22,020 nucleotides of DNA from a virus: IMG/VR virus record IMGVR_UViG_3300003178_000043, positions 1 to 22,020 of that record. One strand, given 5' to 3'. The notes beneath the pieces were generated by a model. It was given only the letters and a program-made list of their open reading frames with translations. It was not told the DNA's origin and searched no databases. Shown here piece after piece: positions 5,471 through 20,407 of this stretch; the first letter of the stretch is position 1, and every line of letters starts with the position of its first letter. Position numbers and translations under genes: made by a program.

Positions 5471-5733
5471 CTTTTACCCCTATACTGATTGAACATTTCA
5501 GCGATTTTATTTATCGCACCCGCACCCACTAATACACCGATAAAAGTATAGATATTTAGCTCTACAAGATTATCTAATACGCTTTTGAGCTTTTCCGCCT
5601 CGGACGGGTAAATAATTACCTTAACCACTACTAAAACCAAGAGTAGTAAAAAAGTGTATCGTGATACTTTGGTCGATAACTTTTCTTTATGTTTAGCCGT
5701 TGTTTGTGGCTCTACTTGCTTTTTTTCTTCCAT
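5467..5733 (-). CDS. Probable holin
   Basis: An 88-residue membrane protein. A charged N-terminal tail (MEEKKQVEPQTTAKHKEKL) is followed by a strong hydrophobic segment at residues about 27-42 (YTFLLLLVLVVVKVIIY), a short polar loop, a second moderately hydrophobic segment at about 60-76 (LNIYTFIGVLVGAGAI) and a basic tail ending NQYRGKR. Two helices with charged tails, immediately before spanins and endolysin, fits a class II-type holin. Start set at the ATG at 5733, which overlaps the nuclease stop as TAATG with AAAAGGA upstream; a TTG three codons earlier is less likely. No family is recognised from residues alone. Confidence 0.65.
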   Translation of the reverse strand: MEEKKQVEPQTTAKHKEKLSTKVSRYTFLLLLVLVVVKVIIYPSEAEKLKSVLDNLVELNIYTFIGVLVGAGAINKIAEMFNQYRGKR

Positions 5734-6179
5734 TACAAACAATCCTTTTTAATGATTTCCCAAATGCCTTTTTGTTTGGCTTTGGCTCTTTTTTCAATAG
5801 CATACAAGACCCGCTTAGTCTTGTAATTTATATCCGCGTGGGCGTAAACTTGGGCGTAACCGTCCCGCACTATCTGAAAATTAAAATCCTTGACCCATAC
5901 CAACGCCCGACCGTAATAATCAATGCCAACCGATAAAAAAGAAATTTTAGACCCAACGGGTAGCGTGTAGGTAGTGTATATCTTGGATAGTTTCCCAAGG
6001 TGCAAAAGTTCACGCTCTGTAAGTTTGCACTCTTTGGACTGTTTACGGCTCTTTTTGCTTTTGTAGCTTTCGGGCGTTTCTATGCCAATTAATCTAGCTT
6101 TAAAGGTGTTGCCCTTAAAGCTTATCTCTATAGTGTCACCGTCTATAATGCGGTTCACCGTTCCAATATCCCAAGCCAT
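5733..6179 (-). CDS. Staphylococcal-nuclease-like (SNase/thermonuclease) protein
   Basis: A 148-residue SNase-fold nuclease, comparable to the 149-residue mature staphylococcal enzyme. Motifs correspond well: VNRIIDGDTIEI (D15 as metal ligand), KARLIGIETPE (R29, E34 replacing the usual Asp, T35, E37 as general base position) and YYGRALVWV (R91). Start set at the ATG at 6179, where GGAGG (6191-6187) lies 7 nt upstream. The frame is also open upstream into the tape-measure gene, and a GTG at 6302 would add 41 residues (INVHVKTTDGKFDNDHF...) that clearly belong to the tape measure. There is no signal peptide of its own. It sits between tape measure and holin, an odd place for a nuclease; it may help degrade host DNA at lysis. 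Confidence 0.85.
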   Translation of the reverse strand: MAWDIGTVNRIIDGDTIEISFKGNTFKARLIGIETPESYKSKKSRKQSKECKLTERELLHLGKLSKIYTTYTLPVGSKISFLSVGIDYYGRALVWVKDFNFQIVRDGYAQVYAHADINYKTKRVLYAIEKRAKAKQKGIWEIIKKDCL

Positions 6180-6587
6180 TAAATAGCCTCCAAGTGTTAA
6201 AAATAAAAGTAGTTTAGCCCTTTCGACTTGGGCTACAAAGTGGTCATTATCAAATTTGCCGTCGGTGGTTTTGACATGAACATTAATAGCCCCTACATCC
6301 ACTTTAACGCTCTTTGAGTGACTAACACCACCCGCACTAGCTAAAGTAGTTTCGTGTCGTGTGTTTACCTCGTTAAAGGTTGTTTGTGGTTTGTAGTATT
6401 TAGGCTCTTGTAGCGTCGATACTGACGCGTAGGCTTTAGGGCTTTTGGTATGTTTGCCTCACGCTCTTTTAGAGAGTGTGAGCCTTTAGGTGGCTTATCA
6501 CTACCAAAGAGATTTTTAGCACTATTCCAAGCCCCCGAAGTCCACTTTTTAACCCTCCCGACCATTGAGCCAATCCAAGCGAACTTT
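6180..6587 (-). pseudogene. Displaced C-terminal part of the tape measure protein (two frame changes)
   Basis: After the TAA at 6590-6588, tape-measure-like sequence continues in the +1 frame: KKFAWIGSMVGRVKKW, then NSAKNLFGSDKPPKG and ending ANIPKAL. It then returns to the original frame at about 6434 as AYASVSTLQEPKYYKP, leading to INVHVKTTDGKFDNDHF, a typical tape-measure C-terminus. The second change is what loss of one A from the run at 6437-6435 would give. The original frame then runs without a stop into the nuclease gene. A one-base shift at the A-run 6215-6213 would place TAA at 6199-6197, just before the nuclease Shine-Dalgarno, the expected native end. Confidence 0.65.
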
Positions 6588-8411
6588 TTAGCTATCTACC
6601 AATTTACTAAAAAAGCCCGTGATACCTGACCAATTTTTAACTATCATGCCTATTGGAGACCACGCCCAAACTTTGCCTAAAAACGCTTTGCCTTTAGCAG
6701 AATAGCTTTTAATGCCCGTCCACATACGACCAAAAAACGGCTTTATCATTGACCACTTACTATAGATAAGATACGCACCACCCGCTATAGCCGTAATGGC
6801 TAAGCCTATCGGGTTAAGCAAAAACGCCCGACCCAACCAACGACCCAACCAAAGCACCGCCCGACCCGCGAACCTCGCACCACCGCCCAAAATAGACATA
6901 GCCACTTTAGAGCGGGTCACCCAACCAATAAACGACCCCGCACCCTTGACTAAGCCTATAAAGGGTGAAGCTATCCACGATAAGGCTTTAATCGCCACCA
7001 ACGCCCCTTTGTTTTCGGTGTAAAATTTACGCGTCCACGATATAGCTTTAGGTATCGTCTCTAAAAACGATATGTAAGTCCCTTTTAGTTGGTCACCAAG
7101 TAAAATAGCCTCAGCGGTTATCTTGTTTTTAACTGCTGTTTCTCTAGCTTCACTTGTAGCCATTTTAACCGCGTATTCAGACGCAACGGCTAACATCATC
7201 TTTTTATCTGCCACGGTCGCTAAAGATTTGTCTAACGCGTCTAATTTGCTACCCATATTTGAGATAACATTAGCCCCTTGACTTCCAAAAGTCTTAATCA
7301 TCTCTTTGTTACTCATTGAGCTTTTTATCTCTTTGATAATTGATTTAAGCTCACCCGCCCCTTTTTTCTGTAGTCGTGAATAAAAACCGAATTTGTCATC
7401 AGTCTTTTTAAATCTATCCGTCAATATCTTGAAAGAGGTCGCGGCTAACTCGGGTGACACTTCAAGCGTATTCATAAAATTACTAATTGCCGCCGCGTTT
7501 TGTGGTTTGAATTTTAAGCCACGAAATACGCCCGATAATCTGCTCGTAGTATTGATTAGGTCTCTAGCTGAGTTTGAGCCGTTATTTTCTAAGTGTGTAA
7601 AGGCATTAGTAAGCACCGATATTTTACGGATAGGTATATCCATACGCTCGGACATTTTCGCAAAGTCCCGCCCGACCTCTGAGGTGTCCAAGTCCATAGC
7701 TACCGACGCTTGGGCTATATCTTTGGTAAATTGTGGTAGGTCTGGAATTTTTACGCCACTTCTACCGCCCCCCGCTTGGATTTGTGCTATCTCTGACGGT
7801 GCTAGTAGTGAGCCTTTAGGAGAAGAGACAATTTTTAAAATATTACGCTTAAGCATAACGATTTGTTTATCGTCTGCATTGGTCGCTTTTTTGACATCTG
7901 CCATTGAGGACTCAAACACCATAGACTTACGCACGGGGCTAATTTGTGCTACTGCACCCATTACCGCACCCGTAGCCATACCACCCGCAAAAACGGCGGT
8001 ATTTTTAGCCTTACTAGATACATAACCACGAACCCGACCCGTTACGCGTTTAGCCCTTGGAGCTTTTGACGCGTGGGTCATTGATTGATTGTAACGGTTA
8101 GCACTATTGGCTATTGAGGTCATATCTTTTTTGACCTCGTTTACCGTAGCTTTTAACGGTGAAGCGTCAAACGCTGAGGCTTCCATTTCACGCCTAAACT
8201 TTTTGGCTGATTGGTGCATACGGCTAAGGTGATTAACGGTCGTGTGTAGTTGGTTGTTGAGTGTTGGGAATGATACGCCCTTAAAGAGCTTTATCTTTTC
8301 GACTGCTTTAGCGTAGGTATGAATACCCTTAAAGCTGTTTTGCATGAAACCGCTACCCTTAATAGCTGAGTCCCATACAATGTTAAACGATAAAGCACCA
8401 CTACCCGCCAT
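6588..8411 (-). CDS. T: Tail tape measure protein (P2 gpT-like), main part
   Basis: A 607-residue tape measure protein that sets tail length and is ejected with the DNA. The N-terminal region is helical. A hydrophobic stretch at about 134-152 (NTAVFAGGMATGAVMGAV) precedes a conserved block around VFESSMADVKKATNADDK and SEIAQIQAGGGRSG that is typical of P2/Mu-type tape measures. Further hydrophobic segments lie at about 495-560 (AMSILGGGARFAGRAVLWLG, GLAITAIAGGAYLIYS). Start at ATG 8411, with AAGGTG upstream. The frame ends at 6588 after GFFSKLVDS, but homologous sequence continues in other frames to about 6200, so the native protein was probably near 740 residues. Confidence 0.88.
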   Translation of the reverse strand: MAGSGALSFNIVWDSAIKGSGFMQNSFKGIHTYAKAVEKIKLFKGVSFPTLNNQLHTTVNHLSRMHQSAKKFRREMEASAFDASPLKATVNEVKKDMTSIANSANRYNQSMTHASKAPRAKRVTGRVRGYVSSKAKNTAVFAGGMATGAVMGAVAQISPVRKSMVFESSMADVKKATNADDKQIVMLKRNILKIVSSPKGSLLAPSEIAQIQAGGGRSGVKIPDLPQFTKDIAQASVAMDLDTSEVGRDFAKMSERMDIPIRKISVLTNAFTHLENNGSNSARDLINTTSRLSGVFRGLKFKPQNAAAISNFMNTLEVSPELAATSFKILTDRFKKTDDKFGFYSRLQKKGAGELKSIIKEIKSSMSNKEMIKTFGSQGANVISNMGSKLDALDKSLATVADKKMMLAVASEYAVKMATSEARETAVKNKITAEAILLGDQLKGTYISFLETIPKAISWTRKFYTENKGALVAIKALSWIASPFIGLVKGAGSFIGWVTRSKVAMSILGGGARFAGRAVLWLGRWLGRAFLLNPIGLAITAIAGGAYLIYSKWSMIKPFFGRMWTGIKSYSAKGKAFLGKVWAWSPIGMIVKNWSGITGFFSKLVDS

Positions 8412-8528: not shown

Positions 8529-8996
8529 TTAAAAGGTCATCGCCTCTAATTTTGCTTCTTTTTCTCTTAACTCTTTTAGTTTTTGGTCTGTTTTTTCTAC
8601 ATCGCAAAGCTCTAACGCTTTATCTATAAAAGGTTGTAGGCTTATGTTGTATTGGTTTGATTTATCTTTGAGCCAAAAAGGATTATTGCTTTTTAATTCT
8701 GCATAGTGTCTTTTTGATTTGCCATTGAGTCCATACTTTACGCCCTCTTGGTCATAATCTATCACATAAATTAGCGGGTATCTATCGCACCCAAGCGTTA
8801 CACTATCGGAGCTAAACGCCCAAGTCTCGTTAATATCATTTTTAGAGATTTTAAGCTCTTTTTTTACCCAAATAGTAGCCTCAATTTGTGAGCGAATATC
8901 TTTTAAATCTTGGTCGTGTTTGGTCTCAGCCTCTGACGGTGCGAAATACCAAATTAAAGCACCTATAACCAAGATACCTATTAAAAAATCTTTCAT
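8529..8996 (-). CDS. Membrane-anchored hypothetical protein, probable moron
   Basis: A 155-residue protein of unknown function. The N-terminus MKDFLIGILVIGALIWYFAP is a single membrane anchor or uncleaved signal, so the rest is probably periplasmic. The remainder has a small strand-rich region around ETWAFSSDSVTLGCDRYPLI with a Cys, a second Cys near the end (LELCDVEK), and a charged helical tail (KLKELREKEAKLEAM). It interrupts the conserved E-to-tape-measure gene order, is flanked by AT-rich non-coding DNA on both sides, and has a TATAAT hexamer upstream. These are signs of a moron, expressible in the lysogen. AAGG lies upstream of the ATG at 8996. A surface or superinfection role is speculation. 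Confidence 0.6.
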   Translation of the reverse strand: MKDFLIGILVIGALIWYFAPSEAETKHDQDLKDIRSQIEATIWVKKELKISKNDINETWAFSSDSVTLGCDRYPLIYVIDYDQEGVKYGLNGKSKRHYAELKSNNPFWLKDKSNQYNISLQPFIDKALELCDVEKTDQKLKELREKEAKLEAMTF

Positions 8997-9056: not shown

Positions 9057-9490
9057 TTACATTTGAAGCCCTCGCGTTTTAAGTTCCATTTCGTGGATTT
9101 TAACGGCTTGTTTGTAGTATTTTAGCCACTCACTTACCGTCATAGTCTCTTGACGGTTTATATCTATATGTAGCCTATAAGAAATGAAGCTTACGCCCTC
9201 GATAAGCGTATCTTCATCTATGATAAAAAAGAGTTGTAAGCCTCCGTAATGGCGTAAGCGTCTTTTAGTGCTAATTGGTCTAGCTCTTCTACTTCAATAT
9301 CACAAAGGTTACAGAATAACCGCTCTTGGAGTTCATCTTCTGAGGTGATAGACTCACGGGCTATTTTTTCATCTTTGATAGTAGGCTCACGCATTGTAAG
9401 CGTATCTTTCCACTCACCGCTAAACGGATATTCACGGCTTAGTTTAATCTCTTTTGGTTTTGCATATTGGACTTTTTTATTATTTGACAT
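9057..9490 (-). CDS. Tail assembly chaperone E+E' fusion made by -1 frameshifting
   Basis: Reading E in frame 0 from 9490 and slipping -1 at TTTTTTA (9230-9224) continues for 56 codons to the TAA at 9059-9057, giving a protein of about 145 residues. The extension begins IIDEDTLIEGVSFISYR and ends with MTVSEWLKYYKQAVKIHE, like the second half of other tail chaperones. X XXY YYZ is satisfied exactly (T TTT TTA, frame 0 codons TTT TTA), and the frame 0 stop follows one codon later. In P2, lambda and many other tailed phages, both the short product and the frameshifted fusion are needed around the tape measure. The position between tube and tape measure agrees. Confidence 0.82.
9218..9490 (-). 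CDS. E: Tail assembly chaperone, short form (P2 gpE-like)
   Basis: A 90-residue P2 gpE-type chaperone. EIKLSREYPFSGEWKDTLTM followed by REPTIKDEKIA is the usual 'set of strands, then L-T-M/L-R-x-P-T' start of this family. The C-terminal CDIEVEELDQLALKDAYAI is the typical helix pair before the frameshift site. It ends with SFLS and a TAG at 9220-9218. Its ATG lies inside the end of the upstream gene (11-bp overlap). It binds the tape measure during tail assembly, together with the E+E' product. Confidence 0.8.
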   Translation of the reverse strand: MSNNKKVQYAKPKEIKLSREYPFSGEWKDTLTMREPTIKDEKIARESITSEDELQERLFCNLCDIEVEELDQLALKDAYAITEAYNSFLS

Positions 9491-9722
9491 CTTCTAACCC
9501 CTTAAATTTTACTTTTGTTACGCTCAAAACTTTACCTTGGATATACTCCACCACTTCAACACTTACGCCGTTATCGTAGCTCTTGACTTTTTCGTCTGAG
9601 ACTCTGAGGCGTTTTATGTCATCTATATACTCATCGCTTACCGTTCTGCTCGGGACATCAAGGTCGATAATAATATCACCCTCACCCTCTTCTAGTTGCA
9701 CGACTTCTTTTTCTTTTGCCAT
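9480..9722 (-). CDS. Hypothetical protein between ACP-HU and E (80 aa)
   Basis: An acidic 80-residue protein of unknown function. Residues 12-40 are dense in Asp/Glu (EGEGDIIIDLDVPSRTVSDE). The C-terminal half alternates as a likely beta-sheet (YDNGVSVEVVEYIQGKVLSV, then TKVKFKGLED). The ATG at 9722 follows AAAGGGT, and the gene overlaps E by 11 bp, so both are translated together. Its place next to the chaperones suggests a tail-assembly accessory, but I do not recognise a family. The gap upstream (9723-9841) holds two hairpins. Confidence 0.65.
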   Translation of the reverse strand: MAKEKEVVQLEEGEGDIIIDLDVPSRTVSDEYIDDIKRLRVSDEKVKSYDNGVSVEVVEYIQGKVLSVTKVKFKGLEDVK

Positions 9723-9841: not shown

Positions 9842-10150
9842 TTACGCGTTAAGAGCGTTGTTAAACTCGTCTGAACCCTCGAACTTAACTTTAGTTACCG
9901 CAGGGAACGCCTCAGTCTGCTTAGTCGCTGGGTTGTAACGATTTCTCGCTTTGAACTCAACCGCTGTAAATGTTCCGAAGTGTCTCATTTTTACATCTTT
10001 ACCCGCAACTACTGCACCTTTAACTTTATCCTCGAAAATGTCAAGGATTTTTCCTACCTCTTCAATGTTTACGCCCGTTACGCCTTGCTTTACCGCTTCC
10101 GCGTGAACCTCGTGTGCCATTTCGTTTTCTGTTACTGTAGCTTTTGCCAT
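9842..10150 (-). CDS. HU/IHF-like protein from internal start
   Basis: Alternative product of the fused frame above: 102 residues starting MAKATVTENEM at ATG 10150, with AAGGA (10162-10158) at 7-nt spacing. HU-like proteins bend and compact DNA; the conserved NP of the arm is present. If made separately it would be a nucleoid-type protein expressed late, with the tail genes. Confidence 0.55.
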   Translation of the reverse strand: MAKATVTENEMAHEVHAEAVKQGVTGVNIEEVGKILDIFEDKVKGAVVAGKDVKMRHFGTFTAVEFKARNRYNPATKQTEAFPAVTKVKFEGSDEFNNALNA

Positions 10151-10390
10151 GATTTTTTCCTTTTCGTTTAGTTTGTTTTGAATATATGTTAGAGCATCGC
10201 CCACGCTTTTTATAGAGTCTAAATCTTTATCCTCTACCTCAATACCGTATTTATCCTCAACCGCTGTAACGACATCTATAGCGTCCAATGAGTCCATACC
10301 CAAATCATCTACAAAGAGAGTATTCTCAGTTATTCCGTCATCTTCTATGCCAAGCGTCGCAACGATTAGAGCTATAAGGTCTTTTAACAT
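9842..10390 (-). CDS. Acyl carrier protein fused to HU/IHF-like DNA-binding domain
   Basis: One 182-residue frame holding two known folds. Residues 1-76 are an acyl carrier protein: the four-helix pattern with DDLGMDSLDAIDVV, where S34 is the phosphopantetheine site, then EDKYGIEVEDKDLDSIKSVG. Residues 81-182 are an HU/IHF (DNABII) protein: helices MAKATVTENEMAHEVHAEAV and EEVGKILDIFEDKV, then MRHFGTF (135-141) and the DNA-binding arm with RNRYNPAT (149-156). Only about four linker residues separate them. An internal ATG at 10150, with AAGGA 7 nt upstream, would also give the HU-like protein alone (102 residues). AAGGCGG precedes the first ATG. A one-base change of a TAG at AAG (codon 78) would restore two genes, so this may be a recent fusion. 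It lies between tail tube and chaperones. Confidence 0.8.
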   Translation of the reverse strand: MLKDLIALIVATLGIEDDGITENTLFVDDLGMDSLDAIDVVTAVEDKYGIEVEDKDLDSIKSVGDALTYIQNKLNEKEKIMAKATVTENEMAHEVHAEAVKQGVTGVNIEEVGKILDIFEDKVKGAVVAGKDVKMRHFGTFTAVEFKARNRYNPATKQTEAFPAVTKVKFEGSDEFNNALNA

Positions 10391-10402: not shown

Positions 10403-10891
10403 TTAGTTGACATTTTGGCGGTATTCTGCCAACAAGTCCACCCCGTCAATGACCAAAACATCGTTTAGACGGTCATAGACCACCTCGGGGATACCGTTTA
10501 CGGTTTTCGTGTATCTATCGACTTTGATTTTAACTTTACGCGTCACCTCCTTACCCTCTTCTAGCGTCCCGTCGTCTAGCTCGTGGATTTCTCCTTGAAC
10601 TGTCACCACTAAAGGAACATCCACCGCGTCGCGTCTAATGTTTCCTTTTAGCACCAACGGTAACCTATCTTTGGGCTTTAAGTTGTTTTTGTTGTATTCA
10701 GCCATGACGATACTTGAATACTTTTCAAAGCTAATCGTCATATACTGAGCTTTAAGCTTCCCGCTTGATATATCGTCAACGACATCCATATCTAGCTTGG
10801 GTTGCTCTACCTTGCCCGTAACTCCAAGGTGTCCGACACCTTGGACGGACGCGTTAAGACCGTTTAAAATATCTTTATCAGTTCTTGCCAT
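10403..10891 (-). CDS. FII: Major tail tube protein (P2 gpFII-like)
   Basis: A 162-residue tail tube protein of the P2 FII family. Pattern: a DISSGKLKAQYMTISFEKYS segment after the N-terminal arm, then LPLVLKGNIRRDAVDVPLVV and VTVQGEIHELDDGTLEEGKE, ending in DRYTKTVNGIPEVVYDRLND. FII subunits stack as hexamers to form the inner tube. The gene begins 3 bp after the sheath gene, and the ACP-HU gene begins 12 bp after it. Length agrees with P2 FII (172). Confidence 0.92.
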   Translation of the reverse strand: MARTDKDILNGLNASVQGVGHLGVTGKVEQPKLDMDVVDDISSGKLKAQYMTISFEKYSSIVMAEYNKNNLKPKDRLPLVLKGNIRRDAVDVPLVVTVQGEIHELDDGTLEEGKEVTRKVKIKVDRYTKTVNGIPEVVYDRLNDVLVIDGVDLLAEYRQNVN

Positions 10892-10894
10892 TTG

Positions 10895-12088
10895 TTAACC
10901 TCCTATGATTTTCATTAGCACGGGACTAAACTTATCGGTAAAGCTACACTCAACCTCAAAGCGTCTAACCGTAGGCATATTTTGCATTTCTGCTACAAGG
11001 TAAAATTTACCCGCCGTTAATGCCTCTTTGGTGTTCTTTTCCGCGTTCCAATAGACATCATAGCCCACCAACACATTAGCACCTTTAAGAGACAATAGCA
11101 GACCGTCAACGCTATCTTTAGCGTGGATTAGGACATCAGCCCCACGGTCAATAGCCCAAAAAACACCCTCTTGGACTGCTTCACCGATACGGTCGAACAC
11201 TCGGACGCGTTCCAAGCTTTGCCAAATACTGTCGGGGTCTGTAGTCTCAAAGCCCCAAAGTCTAAAGCCTTTGTAGTTGATAACGGTCGCTATTCCTAGC
11301 GTTCTGAGTCTGTCCGCCTCGCACTCTTGACCCGCGATAAAGTCAATCGGTCTAGCCGTTCCGCTGATACCTTGCATTACACGGTTAGAGGCACTATTAG
11401 CCCACCCGTATTCTTTGAGACCGTCGGAGTGGGCTATCATACCCGCTACCCTTGCACTCATTGGCTCGGTGATTGTTGCATTTGCTGTCGTGTCCCATAC
11501 CTTGACATACGGGTCACAGACCATAAGCCGACGCGTTCCGAAGTTTTTCATTTTTGCCGTAGCGTCTGCCTCATCTTTGGCGTTAAGGTCAACGATACCC
11601 GTAGCCGATAAAGAGGTAGCTACTGCCTCAATCTGAGCTTTTACATCGCCGTCGTGGCTAAAGCGTGGAGCGATAATCAAGTTTGATTTAACGCCATAGA
11701 TAGACATAGCCGTCTTAGCTTTGTCGATACCGTCGATAATCGCACTTTTTACCTCTGCTACCTCGTAAAATAGCTCTGCTTGTTTTTTACTCTGAGCGTC
11801 GGTGATAGGCACGATATGGACTACCAACGGACTTAATACGCCTTGGTCGTTGATACCGTCAACCGCACCGCTTACCGTTCCTTTTGATTTGTCAAAATCA
11901 TCTTTTGCTTTTTGAGCGTTGCCATAGTGCATAATGTAGTTATGCTCTTTTAGCTTATCTTGCACCTCTTTGCTGAGTGTGGCTAAAACGACCGTAGCGA
12001 TAAGAAAAATCGGTGTAGATGATTTAATTCTAATCGGACGGGACGCGTTAGCCCTTGTTACAATGTTTACACCGTAATTACTAGCCAT
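10895..12088 (-). CDS. FI: Tail sheath protein (P2 gpFI-like)
   Basis: A 397-residue contractile tail sheath, the same length as P2 FI (396). The N-terminal ASNYGVNIVTRANASRPI starts the family's arm. The middle includes KSNLIIAPRFSHDGDVKAQI. The C-terminal region has the conserved RPIDFIAGQECEADRLRTLG, NYKGFRLWGFETTDPDSIWQ and VRVFDRIGEAVQEGVFWAID. Sheath subunits wrap the tube and contract at injection. ATG at 12088 follows AGGAAAGG. It is directly followed by the tube gene, as in P2. Confidence 0.95.
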   Translation of the reverse strand: MASNYGVNIVTRANASRPIRIKSSTPIFLIATVVLATLSKEVQDKLKEHNYIMHYGNAQKAKDDFDKSKGTVSGAVDGINDQGVLSPLVVHIVPITDAQSKKQAELFYEVAEVKSAIIDGIDKAKTAMSIYGVKSNLIIAPRFSHDGDVKAQIEAVATSLSATGIVDLNAKDEADATAKMKNFGTRRLMVCDPYVKVWDTTANATITEPMSARVAGMIAHSDGLKEYGWANSASNRVMQGISGTARPIDFIAGQECEADRLRTLGIATVINYKGFRLWGFETTDPDSIWQSLERVRVFDRIGEAVQEGVFWAIDRGADVLIHAKDSVDGLLLSLKGANVLVGYDVYWNAEKNTKEALTAGKFYLVAEMQNMPTVRRFEVECSFTDKFSPVLMKIIGG

Positions 12089-12092
12089 GTTT

Positions 12093-12569
12093 TTAATCCT
12101 TTCCTATGATTATTAATTGTTTTGTATCAAGGTTAAAGCCTAAGCCTTGACCTCTTGCACCTCTTAGCTTTATGTTACCGCTATCATTAACGACCTCGAA
12201 GTCGCATACAAAAGGGTAACACTCGACTACATTCTCTTTTTTCTCTAAAAGATAATGATTTGTTTCATCGCTAAACCACTCTATCATTTCGTTTTCATCA
12301 AGAATAGCATTTGATATATTAGCCATGTTAAAACCTCCTACCTCGTCTAACTCTATTGATTTTAGACAATGTTTATTTTCAAATTTTCTAAGCACCCAAC
12401 ACAAAGCCTTTTCGGGTTTGGTGGCTTGGTTGGTCGCTATTCTGTAGCCTATGCGTCCGCTTATGGTTAGGTCGGGGTTACCGCCTAAGATTGCGTTTAC
12501 AAATTGGTCAAGCCCGATTAAAACCCGTAAGAAATAAGGTTTATTTGACCAAGCGTTACGCGGTTGCAT
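12093..12569 (-). CDS. Two small phage proteins joined in one frame (function unknown)
   Basis: A 158-residue frame that seems to hold two proteins. Residues 1-81 contain LDQFVNAILGGNPDLTISGR and an ENKHCLKS motif. From memory these resemble a widespread uncharacterised small phage protein with an 'LD...N.LLGG..D.T.S.R ... HC' pattern. Residues 82-158 (MANISNAILDENEMIEW onwards) look like a separate small protein with strands near the end (LDTKQLIIIGKD). An ATG at 12326 has a perfect AGGAGG (12339-12334) 7 nt upstream, so the second part is probably also translated alone (12093-12326). Deleting one G in GACGAGGTAGGAGG would give LDE-stop before that site. The gene lies between the fibre chaperone and sheath, where P2 has no corresponding gene. 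Confidence 0.65.
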   Translation of the reverse strand: MQPRNAWSNKPYFLRVLIGLDQFVNAILGGNPDLTISGRIGYRIATNQATKPEKALCWVLRKFENKHCLKSIELDEVGGFNMANISNAILDENEMIEWFSDETNHYLLEKKENVVECYPFVCDFEVVNDSGNIKLRGARGQGLGFNLDTKQLIIIGKD

Positions 12570-17713: not shown

Positions 17714-17938
17714 ATGGCGGTCAAAAGTAACCCTATTACGGTATATCTTTACGACAATAGAAACCTTACTCTCAGTTTATGGGCTAAAAAACACGGTTTT
17801 AACCCTACAAGTGTAAGAAATACTTTTTATGGAATTAGACCCATTAAAAAAGTAGTATCGTATATAAAAGAGAATGACCAAGAGCTTTATAATATGCTAC
17901 CCGCTGAGGCTAAAGCGATTGTTGAGGCTGTAGCATGA
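17714..17938 (+). CDS. Cro/Ner-like small DNA-binding protein
   Basis: A 74-residue protein, probably the early antirepressor-type regulator. LTLSLWAKKHGFNPTSVRNT and the following FYGIRPIKKVVSYIK form a helix-turn-helix similar to Ner/Nlp proteins, where W-A-x-x-x-G-F-x-x-x-x-V is the usual motif. It starts the plus-strand early operon, with AAGGAG upstream of the ATG at 17714, and its stop overlaps the primase start (ATGA at 17935-17938). It should bind the operators at 17583-17667 and oppose the repressor. Being first in the replication operon supports this. Confidence 0.7.
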   Translation: MAVKSNPITVYLYDNRNLTLSLWAKKHGFNPTSVRNTFYGIRPIKKVVSYIKENDQELYNMLPAEAKAIVEAVA

Positions 17939-18759
17939 GCCACAAAACAGACTTAGAGGCACTAAAAGCCAAACTTGATATTATCGCTTTGGCTGAGAGT
18001 TACGGCTTTGGATTTAAGCAACCAAGCGGGGCTAGATATAGAGCCACTCAAAACTTACTAAGAGACGAAAAAACAAGCTCTTTAGACTTTTTTAGCGATA
18101 CTCAAAAGTTTTATGACCGTGGCACGGCTGAGGGTGGCGATGTAATCGACCTTATAGGTAAAATGGAAAATTTAGACGCGACCCAAGCTATCATAAGAGC
18201 TAAAGAGTTGGCGGGTGAAGATACCTACACCGTGCAAAAAAGAGAGGCTAAGCCCGTAAAGAAAAAAGTTAAAAAGATTGATTTTAATCAACTCCAAAAA
18301 CAAGCAACCCAAGAGCTAAACGCGGTAAAATCGCTTAACCCTTTTATAGAATTAGTAGAGGAAAATAAAAGCGGTAAAATCACTAAGCAAGAATTAATAA
18401 TAAATAAAAATTATGGTAAACTCTTTGAGGGTTTAAGCTTTACAATAGATTTTAAACCAAAGTTAGAGTATGTTTTTAAAAACCTCTTGGGTTGGTCTGA
18501 ATTTTGGAAAAGCCCAACGCTGATTTTAAGAGACCTTGACGGTCGTGTAGTCGATATTGTAGCGTATAGACCGCACGACAAAGAGACGGGTCAAGAGATT
18601 AGCGGTATGAAGTATTACTACAAAAACTTTAACGGTCGTGGTGAGCGTTTTATCTATCCTTATCAAAAAGAGGTAGAGCGTATTGCTGAGCGTGAAGAGT
18701 ATATTATCATAGGAGAGGGTTTAAAAAATGCTTTAAATGCTTTAATAAGCGGGGCTTAA
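17935..18759 (+). CDS. TOPRIM primase, truncated within the TOPRIM domain
   Basis: A 274-residue DnaG-type/phage primase. The N-terminal part follows the CHC2 zinc-domain pattern (YRATQNLLRDEKTSSLDFFS, then GGDVIDLIGKMENLDATQAI), but the zinc cysteines are absent. The middle has a binding domain (LILRDLDGRVVDIVAYRPHD, SGMKYYYKNFNGRGERFIYP). The TOPRIM starts with EEYIIIGEGLKNALNAL, E261 being the catalytic Glu. The frame then stops at 18759 after ISGA, so the DxD part of the TOPRIM is missing, and the normal end continues in another frame from 18749. With the helicase downstream it forms a RepA-like replication pair. As it stands it probably lacks primase activity. Confidence 0.75.
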   Translation: MSHKTDLEALKAKLDIIALAESYGFGFKQPSGARYRATQNLLRDEKTSSLDFFSDTQKFYDRGTAEGGDVIDLIGKMENLDATQAIIRAKELAGEDTYTVQKREAKPVKKKVKKIDFNQLQKQATQELNAVKSLNPFIELVEENKSGKITKQELIINKNYGKLFEGLSFTIDFKPKLEYVFKNLLGWSEFWKSPTLILRDLDGRVVDIVAYRPHDKETGQEISGMKYYYKNFNGRGERFIYPYQKEVERIAEREEYIIIGEGLKNALNALISGA

Positions 18760-18859
18760 AGCCTATAATAATTTTTTATCGTTGTTAGGATTTGAAGTTG
18801 AAAATATATTAGATTTTAACTCAAATCAAGACTTTGTAGAATATCTAAAGGCGGACTAG
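18749..18859 (+). pseudogene. Displaced C-terminal piece of the primase
   Basis: Frame +2, open only from 18749, reads AGLKAYNNFLSLLGFEVENI and continues to TAG at 18857-18859, directly before the helicase ATG. In TOPRIM primases 'AG.KAY' follows the DxD motif, so this is the true end of the protein. The segment that should connect GEG...ALISG to AGLKAY, with the DxD residues, is absent. The stretch AAGCGGGGCT (18747-18756) can be read as both ends of the missing segment, pointing to deletion between short repeats. Confidence 0.65.
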
Positions 18860-20407
18860 ATGGACACACAAAAACAGAACTATACATATAAAACAAGATT
18901 AGGTAATACCTCTTCTATCCTTGGCGATTTTATGCAAAAAAAAGCCATTAAGAAGAGAGGGACACAACAAGAGCAAGAGCGGGAAAACCCGTTAAACGAT
19001 AACGACCAAATGGCTCTTATCATGGAGATTTTTAGTCGTTGTCATAATGTCAAAATAGACGGACAAAAAGAACTATTATTAGACTTAAAAGACGGTCATA
19101 TCCAACACATAGAGAGAAACTATAAAAACTTTTCTACTATCATTAAAATTACTTTTCGTAAAGTGGCTAAAGAGGGTTACGAACATATCAATCTACCTAA
19201 ACTTTTTGAGGTAATCAAGACGAAAAACTCTTACAGTTTTAGGACTTCAAAGTCTATCTTTAATGAGAAAAACCAATTAGTCATTAATGAGGCACGAAAA
19301 GAGCTTATTAATGAGCTTAAAATCGACTATAATTTTAATATCCAAGATATAGACCCTAAAGAGTATAACGCTATCGTGCATGGCATTAACGAGCATTGGC
19401 AAGGTCTAATCCCAATGATTTTAGACCATATCGTAGCGGGTAAATTTGCGACCGACAAAAAAAACCTTTGGTTATTGGTTATGGCTGATAGTAACTTTGG
19501 TAAGTCAAAATTGTTTAATTGGTTAGAACCTTTTGGCGGGTCTGCTTTTTTGGATTTTAAAGATTTGATTAGTGACGGCATTAGTGATAAATCACCCGAC
19601 GAAATAGAGGGTAAAATGTGCTTAGTCATAGACGAAGTAACAAGTTTTCACCGTAAGCTATTTAAGATAGAAGATAACCTAATGATTAGACCTATGCGTA
19701 ACCACGCCATAAGAATACCTATCAATAGTAGAATACTCCTATCAGCAGACGGCGGGACATTTAATAACGAGTATATGGATAAACAGATTATTAACCGTGT
19801 AGCTGTAATCGACCTTAGAGGTAAGCGAACGGGTGAGCTTGGAAGTCTCAGCATTACGCACCAATACGGACGCTATAAAATCGCTTTAGTTATGACCCAT
19901 TGGCTCTATACTCAGATATTTAACAGACTTCAAGAGTATAGACGATTAGGGCATATAGAGAGAGCCAATAAAGCAGATAACACCATTCAAGATATTTTCA
20001 ATCTATATAAGCAACAAAAAGAGGACTTTTTCGAGATTGTCGAAAAATCACTATACGAGATATTACCCGAACCGTCAAACGCTCTTGACGATTATCACGC
20101 TAATATCTTGGGTAATGCTATACTGTATAGAGAGGACGGCTACATCATCAAGCGACCGCAAGAGATTATCCCTAAAATACTAATCAATTACGATAAATCG
20201 TTAGAGTATGAATTAGGCTATAAAAATCTAAAACAGATTGAAGCTAAAATAGGCGGATTTAAAATCGGGTCGTTTAAAATCGACGGTAAAACTATTAGAG
20301 GGCTATTTATCCCTAAGAATAGAATTAAAGACCAAAAAACACTTAACACACTTGACAAAGTAGCCTCTATTAAAAACAAGGCTAAAAAGGTTACCGTAAA
20401 CGCTTAA
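18860..20407 (+). CDS. SF3-type replicative helicase (D5/RepA-like)
   Basis: A 515-residue replication helicase. The N-terminal 150 residues are basic and specific (QKKAIKKRGTQQEQE). The ATPase core has a Walker A VMADSNFGKSKLFNWLEPFG (about residues 208-227), a Walker B KMCLVIDEVTSF (about 253-264) and a sensor region RIPINSRILLSADGGTFNNE, matching plasmid/phage superfamily 3 helicases. The C-terminal part, from about 425, looks like a winged-helix or DNA-binding tail ending in basic residues. It starts at ATG 18860, immediately after the primase remnant stop. In N15-type phages primase and helicase are one protein, RepA; here they are two. It is followed by an iteron-rich region that is a good candidate origin. 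Confidence 0.78.
   Translation: MDTQKQNYTYKTRLGNTSSILGDFMQKKAIKKRGTQQEQERENPLNDNDQMALIMEIFSRCHNVKIDGQKELLLDLKDGHIQHIERNYKNFSTIIKITFRKVAKEGYEHINLPKLFEVIKTKNSYSFRTSKSIFNEKNQLVINEARKELINELKIDYNFNIQDIDPKEYNAIVHGINEHWQGLIPMILDHIVAGKFATDKKNLWLLVMADSNFGKSKLFNWLEPFGGSAFLDFKDLISDGISDKSPDEIEGKMCLVIDEVTSFHRKLFKIEDNLMIRPMRNHAIRIPINSRILLSADGGTFNNEYMDKQIINRVAVIDLRGKRTGELGSLSITHQYGRYKIALVMTHWLYTQIFNRLQEYRRLGHIERANKADNTIQDIFNLYKQQKEDFFEIVEKSLYEILPEPSNALDDYHANILGNAILYREDGYIIKRPQEIIPKILINYDKSLEYELGYKNLKQIEAKIGGFKIGSFKIDGKTIRGLFIPKNRIKDQKTLNTLDKVASIKNKAKKVTVNA

Follow-up and report, generated by a model that had tools for sequence, protein, structure and literature searches.

The joined gene and its two halves

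The window, i.e. the whole stretch of DNA analysed, is an IMG/VR virus record of 22,020 bases. Within a P2-type tail module it contains a single open reading frame in which an acyl carrier protein (ACP) is followed by an HU-type DNA-binding protein. Coordinates, strand, both domains and the tail neighbours (PF04985, PF10109) are those of the original prediction of an open ACP-HU frame in a phage tail operon. The original observation is confirmed, and its interpretation is supported in part. The features of the gene are:

9842-10390, minus strand: ACP-HU open reading frame, 182 aa in one frame, conserved in the related contigs L002, L003 and L004
10151-10390, minus strand: acyl carrier (PP-binding) half, residues 1-80, with the Ser34 codon at 10289-10291
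9842-10150, minus strand: HU/DNABII half, 102 aa, a possible separate product
10158-10162, minus strand: internal Shine-Dalgarno-like AAGGA, 7 nt before the internal ATG, same sequence and spacing in 4/4 phages
10148-10150, minus strand: in-frame internal ATG (Met81), probable start of a free HU, with Met-Ala invariant amid variable linker codons
9760-9829, minus strand: twin RNA hairpins, adjacent and near-perfect (9829-9801 and 9800-9760), immediately behind the ACP-HU stop codon

Both halves scored above the curated Pfam cut-offs. PF00550 (PP-binding) matched residues 4-70 (E 4.6e-12; 46.4 bits vs 20.8) and PF00216 (Bac_DNA_binding) residues 99-181 (E 2e-14; 54 bits vs 22.4). In PHROGs the ACP half was assigned to phage ACPs (5934) and the HU half to phage HU-type DNA-binding proteins (379). 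Among solved structures in the PDB the best match of the ACP half was 2ehs (4e-16) and that of the divergent HU half 6n2l (3.4e-9). The DSL motif with the phosphopantetheine serine Ser34, which had been claimed to be intact, is invariant in all four known copies, as is the Asn-Pro (NP) beta-arm motif of the HU half, kept as RYNPAT. The ACP half missed the NCBIfam cut-offs for AcpP equivalogs (TIGR00517, 62 vs 70.45 bits; NF002148, 68 vs 71). By these profiles it is predicted to be a carrier domain but not a bona fide AcpP equivalog. The end of the ACP and the beginning of the HU (MAK) look like natural termini. Purifying selection operated on both halves (dN/dS 0.04-0.32). An AlphaFold model of the fusion with four sequences as input was of low confidence (pLDDT 56). 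We conclude that the predicted ACP-HU protein is encoded by one unbroken frame in which an AcpP-type carrier domain is joined to an HU domain.

HU proteins are typically strongly basic, a usual rather than a strictly defining property. Here the HU half is near neutral (net charge -1 to +1, pI 6.3-8.0) and the ACP half is strongly acidic (net charge -12 to -13). Given these charges, the ACP arm may lower or control any binding of DNA by the HU half.

Search for further copies

Scans of the viral collection yielded only three relatives, with ACP-HU identities of 97% (L002), 94% (L003) and 63% (L004). A stop codon between the two domains of a relative had been named beforehand as evidence against the fusion. 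We looked for such relatives in the viral collection and found none among the three; the ACP-HU frame runs uninterrupted in 4/4 separate IMG/VR contigs. Indels in the junction region were of 3 nt only, one of them in the linker. A separate, unfused ACP or HU relative of the gene was not found.

The domain pair was also sought elsewhere, as the original prediction had proposed. In annotated phages and plasmids tblastn retrieved ACP halves only, and a scan for other fusions in genomes outside the Campylobacterota returned ordinary ACPs only. Among 50 ACP-bearing phage contigs 46 had no HU match, two were fusion contigs and two carried an HU tens of kilobases away; thus, an HU near an ACP occurred only in the two fusion contigs. 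The HU half alone as a query had no phage match, and a search of 299 genomes of one phylum, run without a positive control, gave no close HU relative. Literature on an ACP joined to HU was not found. The pair of ACP and HU domains appears to be undescribed in the literature and the collections searched; the four known copies all belong to a single group of phages.

A conserved, probable internal start at Met81

The codons for Lys-Glu, which carry the Shine-Dalgarno-like sequence, and for Met-Ala (ATG-GCA), which make up the start, are invariant in 4/4 copies. The two codons between AAGGA and Met81 vary (K/N, I/T), and so do those after Met-Ala. MAK is a typical N-terminal start of HU proteins. 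The calculated duplex energy of AAGGA was -5.6 kcal/mol, a value within the range of real starts in the window, compared with medians of -7.1 for real starts and -2.1 for internal ATGs, and an equally strong Shine-Dalgarno sequence was present at 12 of 105 internal ATGs. By strength alone Met81 would not stand out as a start; what counts in its favour is that it is conserved in four related phages. The window has a single occurrence of the pattern AAGGA-N7-ATGGCNAA, and shuffled sequences have none. Because Shine-Dalgarno sequence, spacing and ATG are conserved amid varying spacer codons, we read the locus as a nested gene for ACP-HU and free HU, the latter probably made from Met81. Of the options raised originally, two proteins with an internal start is the best supported.

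Since no stop intervenes, any ACP made would be attached to HU. A frameshift or slippage giving ACP alone was considered and rejected. The +1 frame at the junction reaches a stop after 8 codons, but L002 lacks the A6 run found there in the window, and the mechanism is not conserved.

The tail operon and the host group

The neighbouring tail genes are:

10895-12088: tail sheath
10403-10891, minus strand: tail tube protein (FII), upstream neighbour (PF04985, E 4.2e-21)
9480-9722, minus strand: 80-aa open reading frame, downstream neighbour before the tail chaperone, present in L002, L003 and L004
9218-9490, minus strand: tail assembly chaperone of the P2 E type (PF10109, E 8.2e-11)
6588-8411, minus strand: tape measure

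The order is that of a P2-type tail module: sheath, tube, ACP-HU, 80-aa frame, tail chaperone, tape measure, U and D-like genes. A family search with the 80-aa frame gave no match. The tape measure seems broken (5733-8411, minus strand), with 607 aa vs 809-812 aa and a C-terminal piece that is read into the following nuclease frame; this appears to be decay or an assembly error. Also within the tail operon lies a DUF2511 protein with a hydrophobic N-terminus (8529-8996, minus strand), conserved in L002 and L003. On the plus strand the window carries a ParA-like gene (1070-1645) with an internal repeated stretch (YLITNDDSVVEDIMPNPD, present twice) and, at 17714-20407, a helicase-like frame preceded by a primase-like zinc ribbon. 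With these genes a phage-plasmid is possible.

The sheath was closest to those of Helicobacter pullorum and H. apodemus prophages (49-52% identity), followed by Campylobacter Mu-like phages (38-39%) and Sulfurimonas phage SNW-1 (31%). Because the closest sheath proteins come from phages and prophages of these three genera, we infer a host in the Campylobacterota. In four Campylobacterota phage records and one Campylobacter coli plasmid record the chaperone comes next after the tube, and the annotation shows neither an ACP nor an HU in between. As this slot is empty in the relatives, the ACP-HU gene is best described, from gene order, as an accessory gene inserted between those for the tube and the chaperone of the tail. 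The contigs of the three related phages, which are fragments, showed no acpS gene.

A twin hairpin after the stop codon

The twin hairpins lie in a gap of 110-120 nt that separates the ACP-HU stop from the following frame. Across the four phages the folding z-scores were -4.5 to -6.6. In the alignment 98% of cells were paired, and two pairs were changed on both sides. Four to seven G-U pairs are present, and the message strand folds with -30.9 to -42.6 kcal/mol vs -11.9 to -21.4 for the other strand. Because of the several G-U pairs and the far better folding of the message strand, the element most likely acts as RNA. For the same reasons cruciform DNA or an HU-binding site is less likely. An intrinsic terminator is unlikely; a T run is absent and a terminator scan did not find it. 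Promoter-like sites of the gene itself were not above chance. A comparison with Rfam gave no match, and in the folded gaps of relatives without ACP-HU a comparable twin hairpin was weak or absent. The twin hairpin probably serves to process or stabilise the part of the message for sheath, tube and ACP-HU, compared with the part for chaperone and tape. Such a role would separate the abundant tube message from the scarcer chaperone and tape messages.

Is the fusion selected?

Two independent accessory genes for ACP and HU may have been joined passively when the ACP stop was lost, with HU translated from its own start as before and also attached to the ACP as a tail without joint function. The retention by HU of its own Shine-Dalgarno sequence and ATG is consistent with this, as is a linker dN/dS of about 1, a value from low dS and small numbers. 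In simulations of random substitution without selection the junction stayed open with a probability of about 0.6-0.85. As to joint selection for the fusion, the junction could readily remain open by chance. In addition, another gene of this phage shows in-frame joining with a Shine-Dalgarno sequence inside it:

12093-12569, minus strand: two coding parts joined in frame, GGAGG at internal Met82

The downstream half stands alone as a gene in L003 (L135:5768-6001) and in L004 (2277-2528), where the genes upstream of it are other, unrelated ones, which indicates that neighbours are passively joined in frame in this phage group. Against passive joining of ACP and HU speak the lack of a separate relative of either half in our searches and the persistence of the fused frame down to 63% identity and across the 3-nt linker indel. 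We consider a purely passive origin possible, yet not the probable one.

A single bifunctional ACP-HU factor, a lipid- or phosphopantetheine-bearing protein for DNA binding or tail assembly with Met81 unused, would agree with the conserved open frame and Ser34 and with the location among tail assembly genes. It does not account for a Shine-Dalgarno spacing and a Met-Ala kept exactly within a variable linker and is unlikely. That an assembly or sequencing artefact joined two genes has virtually no probability left: the tape measure gene of the window is damaged (6588-8411, shorter than the 809-812 aa of L002/L003), yet the same open junction is present in three other contigs, one only 63% identical, so that a read error is excluded and the independent copies have already refuted an artefact.

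A proposed mechanism

Our preferred reading is an accessory two-product gene of a Campylobacterota phage, inserted between tube FII and chaperone E of its P2-type tail module. It has two steps. Translation from the first ATG would likely yield ACP-HU, the carrier domain existing only as a fusion, and ribosomes would likely also initiate at Met81 via the conserved AAGGA to yield free HU. For the two steps jointly we consider the chances to be even. The next two points draw on the respective protein families. HU dimerises, and ACP-HU/ACP-HU, ACP-HU/HU and HU/HU dimers are plausible. It is equally plausible that phosphopantetheine is attached to Ser34 by the AcpS of the host. Speculatively, and with little probability, the acidic ACP arm would tune HU, or it would anchor host enzymes that bind ACPs on the phage DNA at a late stage of infection. 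The broader picture of a phosphopantetheine-bearing nucleoid-type protein, with nested HU and ACP-HU forming DNA-bound HU dimers that carry one or two carrier arms and couple the fatty-acid metabolism of the host to tail assembly or to late phage DNA, is tentative and rather doubtful.

If the nested gene is real, a single gene would generate a series of homo- and heterodimers via an internal start. Phage ACPs are widespread and their role is unexplained. An ACP tied in frame to an HU domain, together with a probable dose of untied HU, is a concrete handle on them.

Comparison with known systems

Among Campylobacterota phages, P2-like tail modules (Campylobacter phage PC10, Helicobacter pullorum and H. 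apodemus prophages, Sulfurimonas phage SNW-1) share the order of sheath, tube, chaperone and tape measure, with sheaths 31-52% identical; they differ in that no ACP-HU is annotated between tube and chaperone and in the folded gaps there is no comparable twin hairpin. With HU/IHF proteins (DNABII; PF00216, PHROG 379) ACP-HU shares the family sequence and the NP arm motif, whereas the N-terminal ACP, the near-neutral charge and the divergence evident from its best PDB match set it apart. Stand-alone phage ACPs (PHROG 5934) have the same AcpP-like carrier domain with the DSL serine, yet those examined are not joined to HU. An example of a lone ACP, with unclear function, is ORF32 of Erythrobacter phage vB_EliS-R6L (PMC5463345). 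Finally, the E. coli AcpP-MukB complex, which is non-covalent and involves an SMC and not an HU protein, provides for ACP-HU an analogy only: there, an ACP works with a chromosome-organising protein (PMC8602292).
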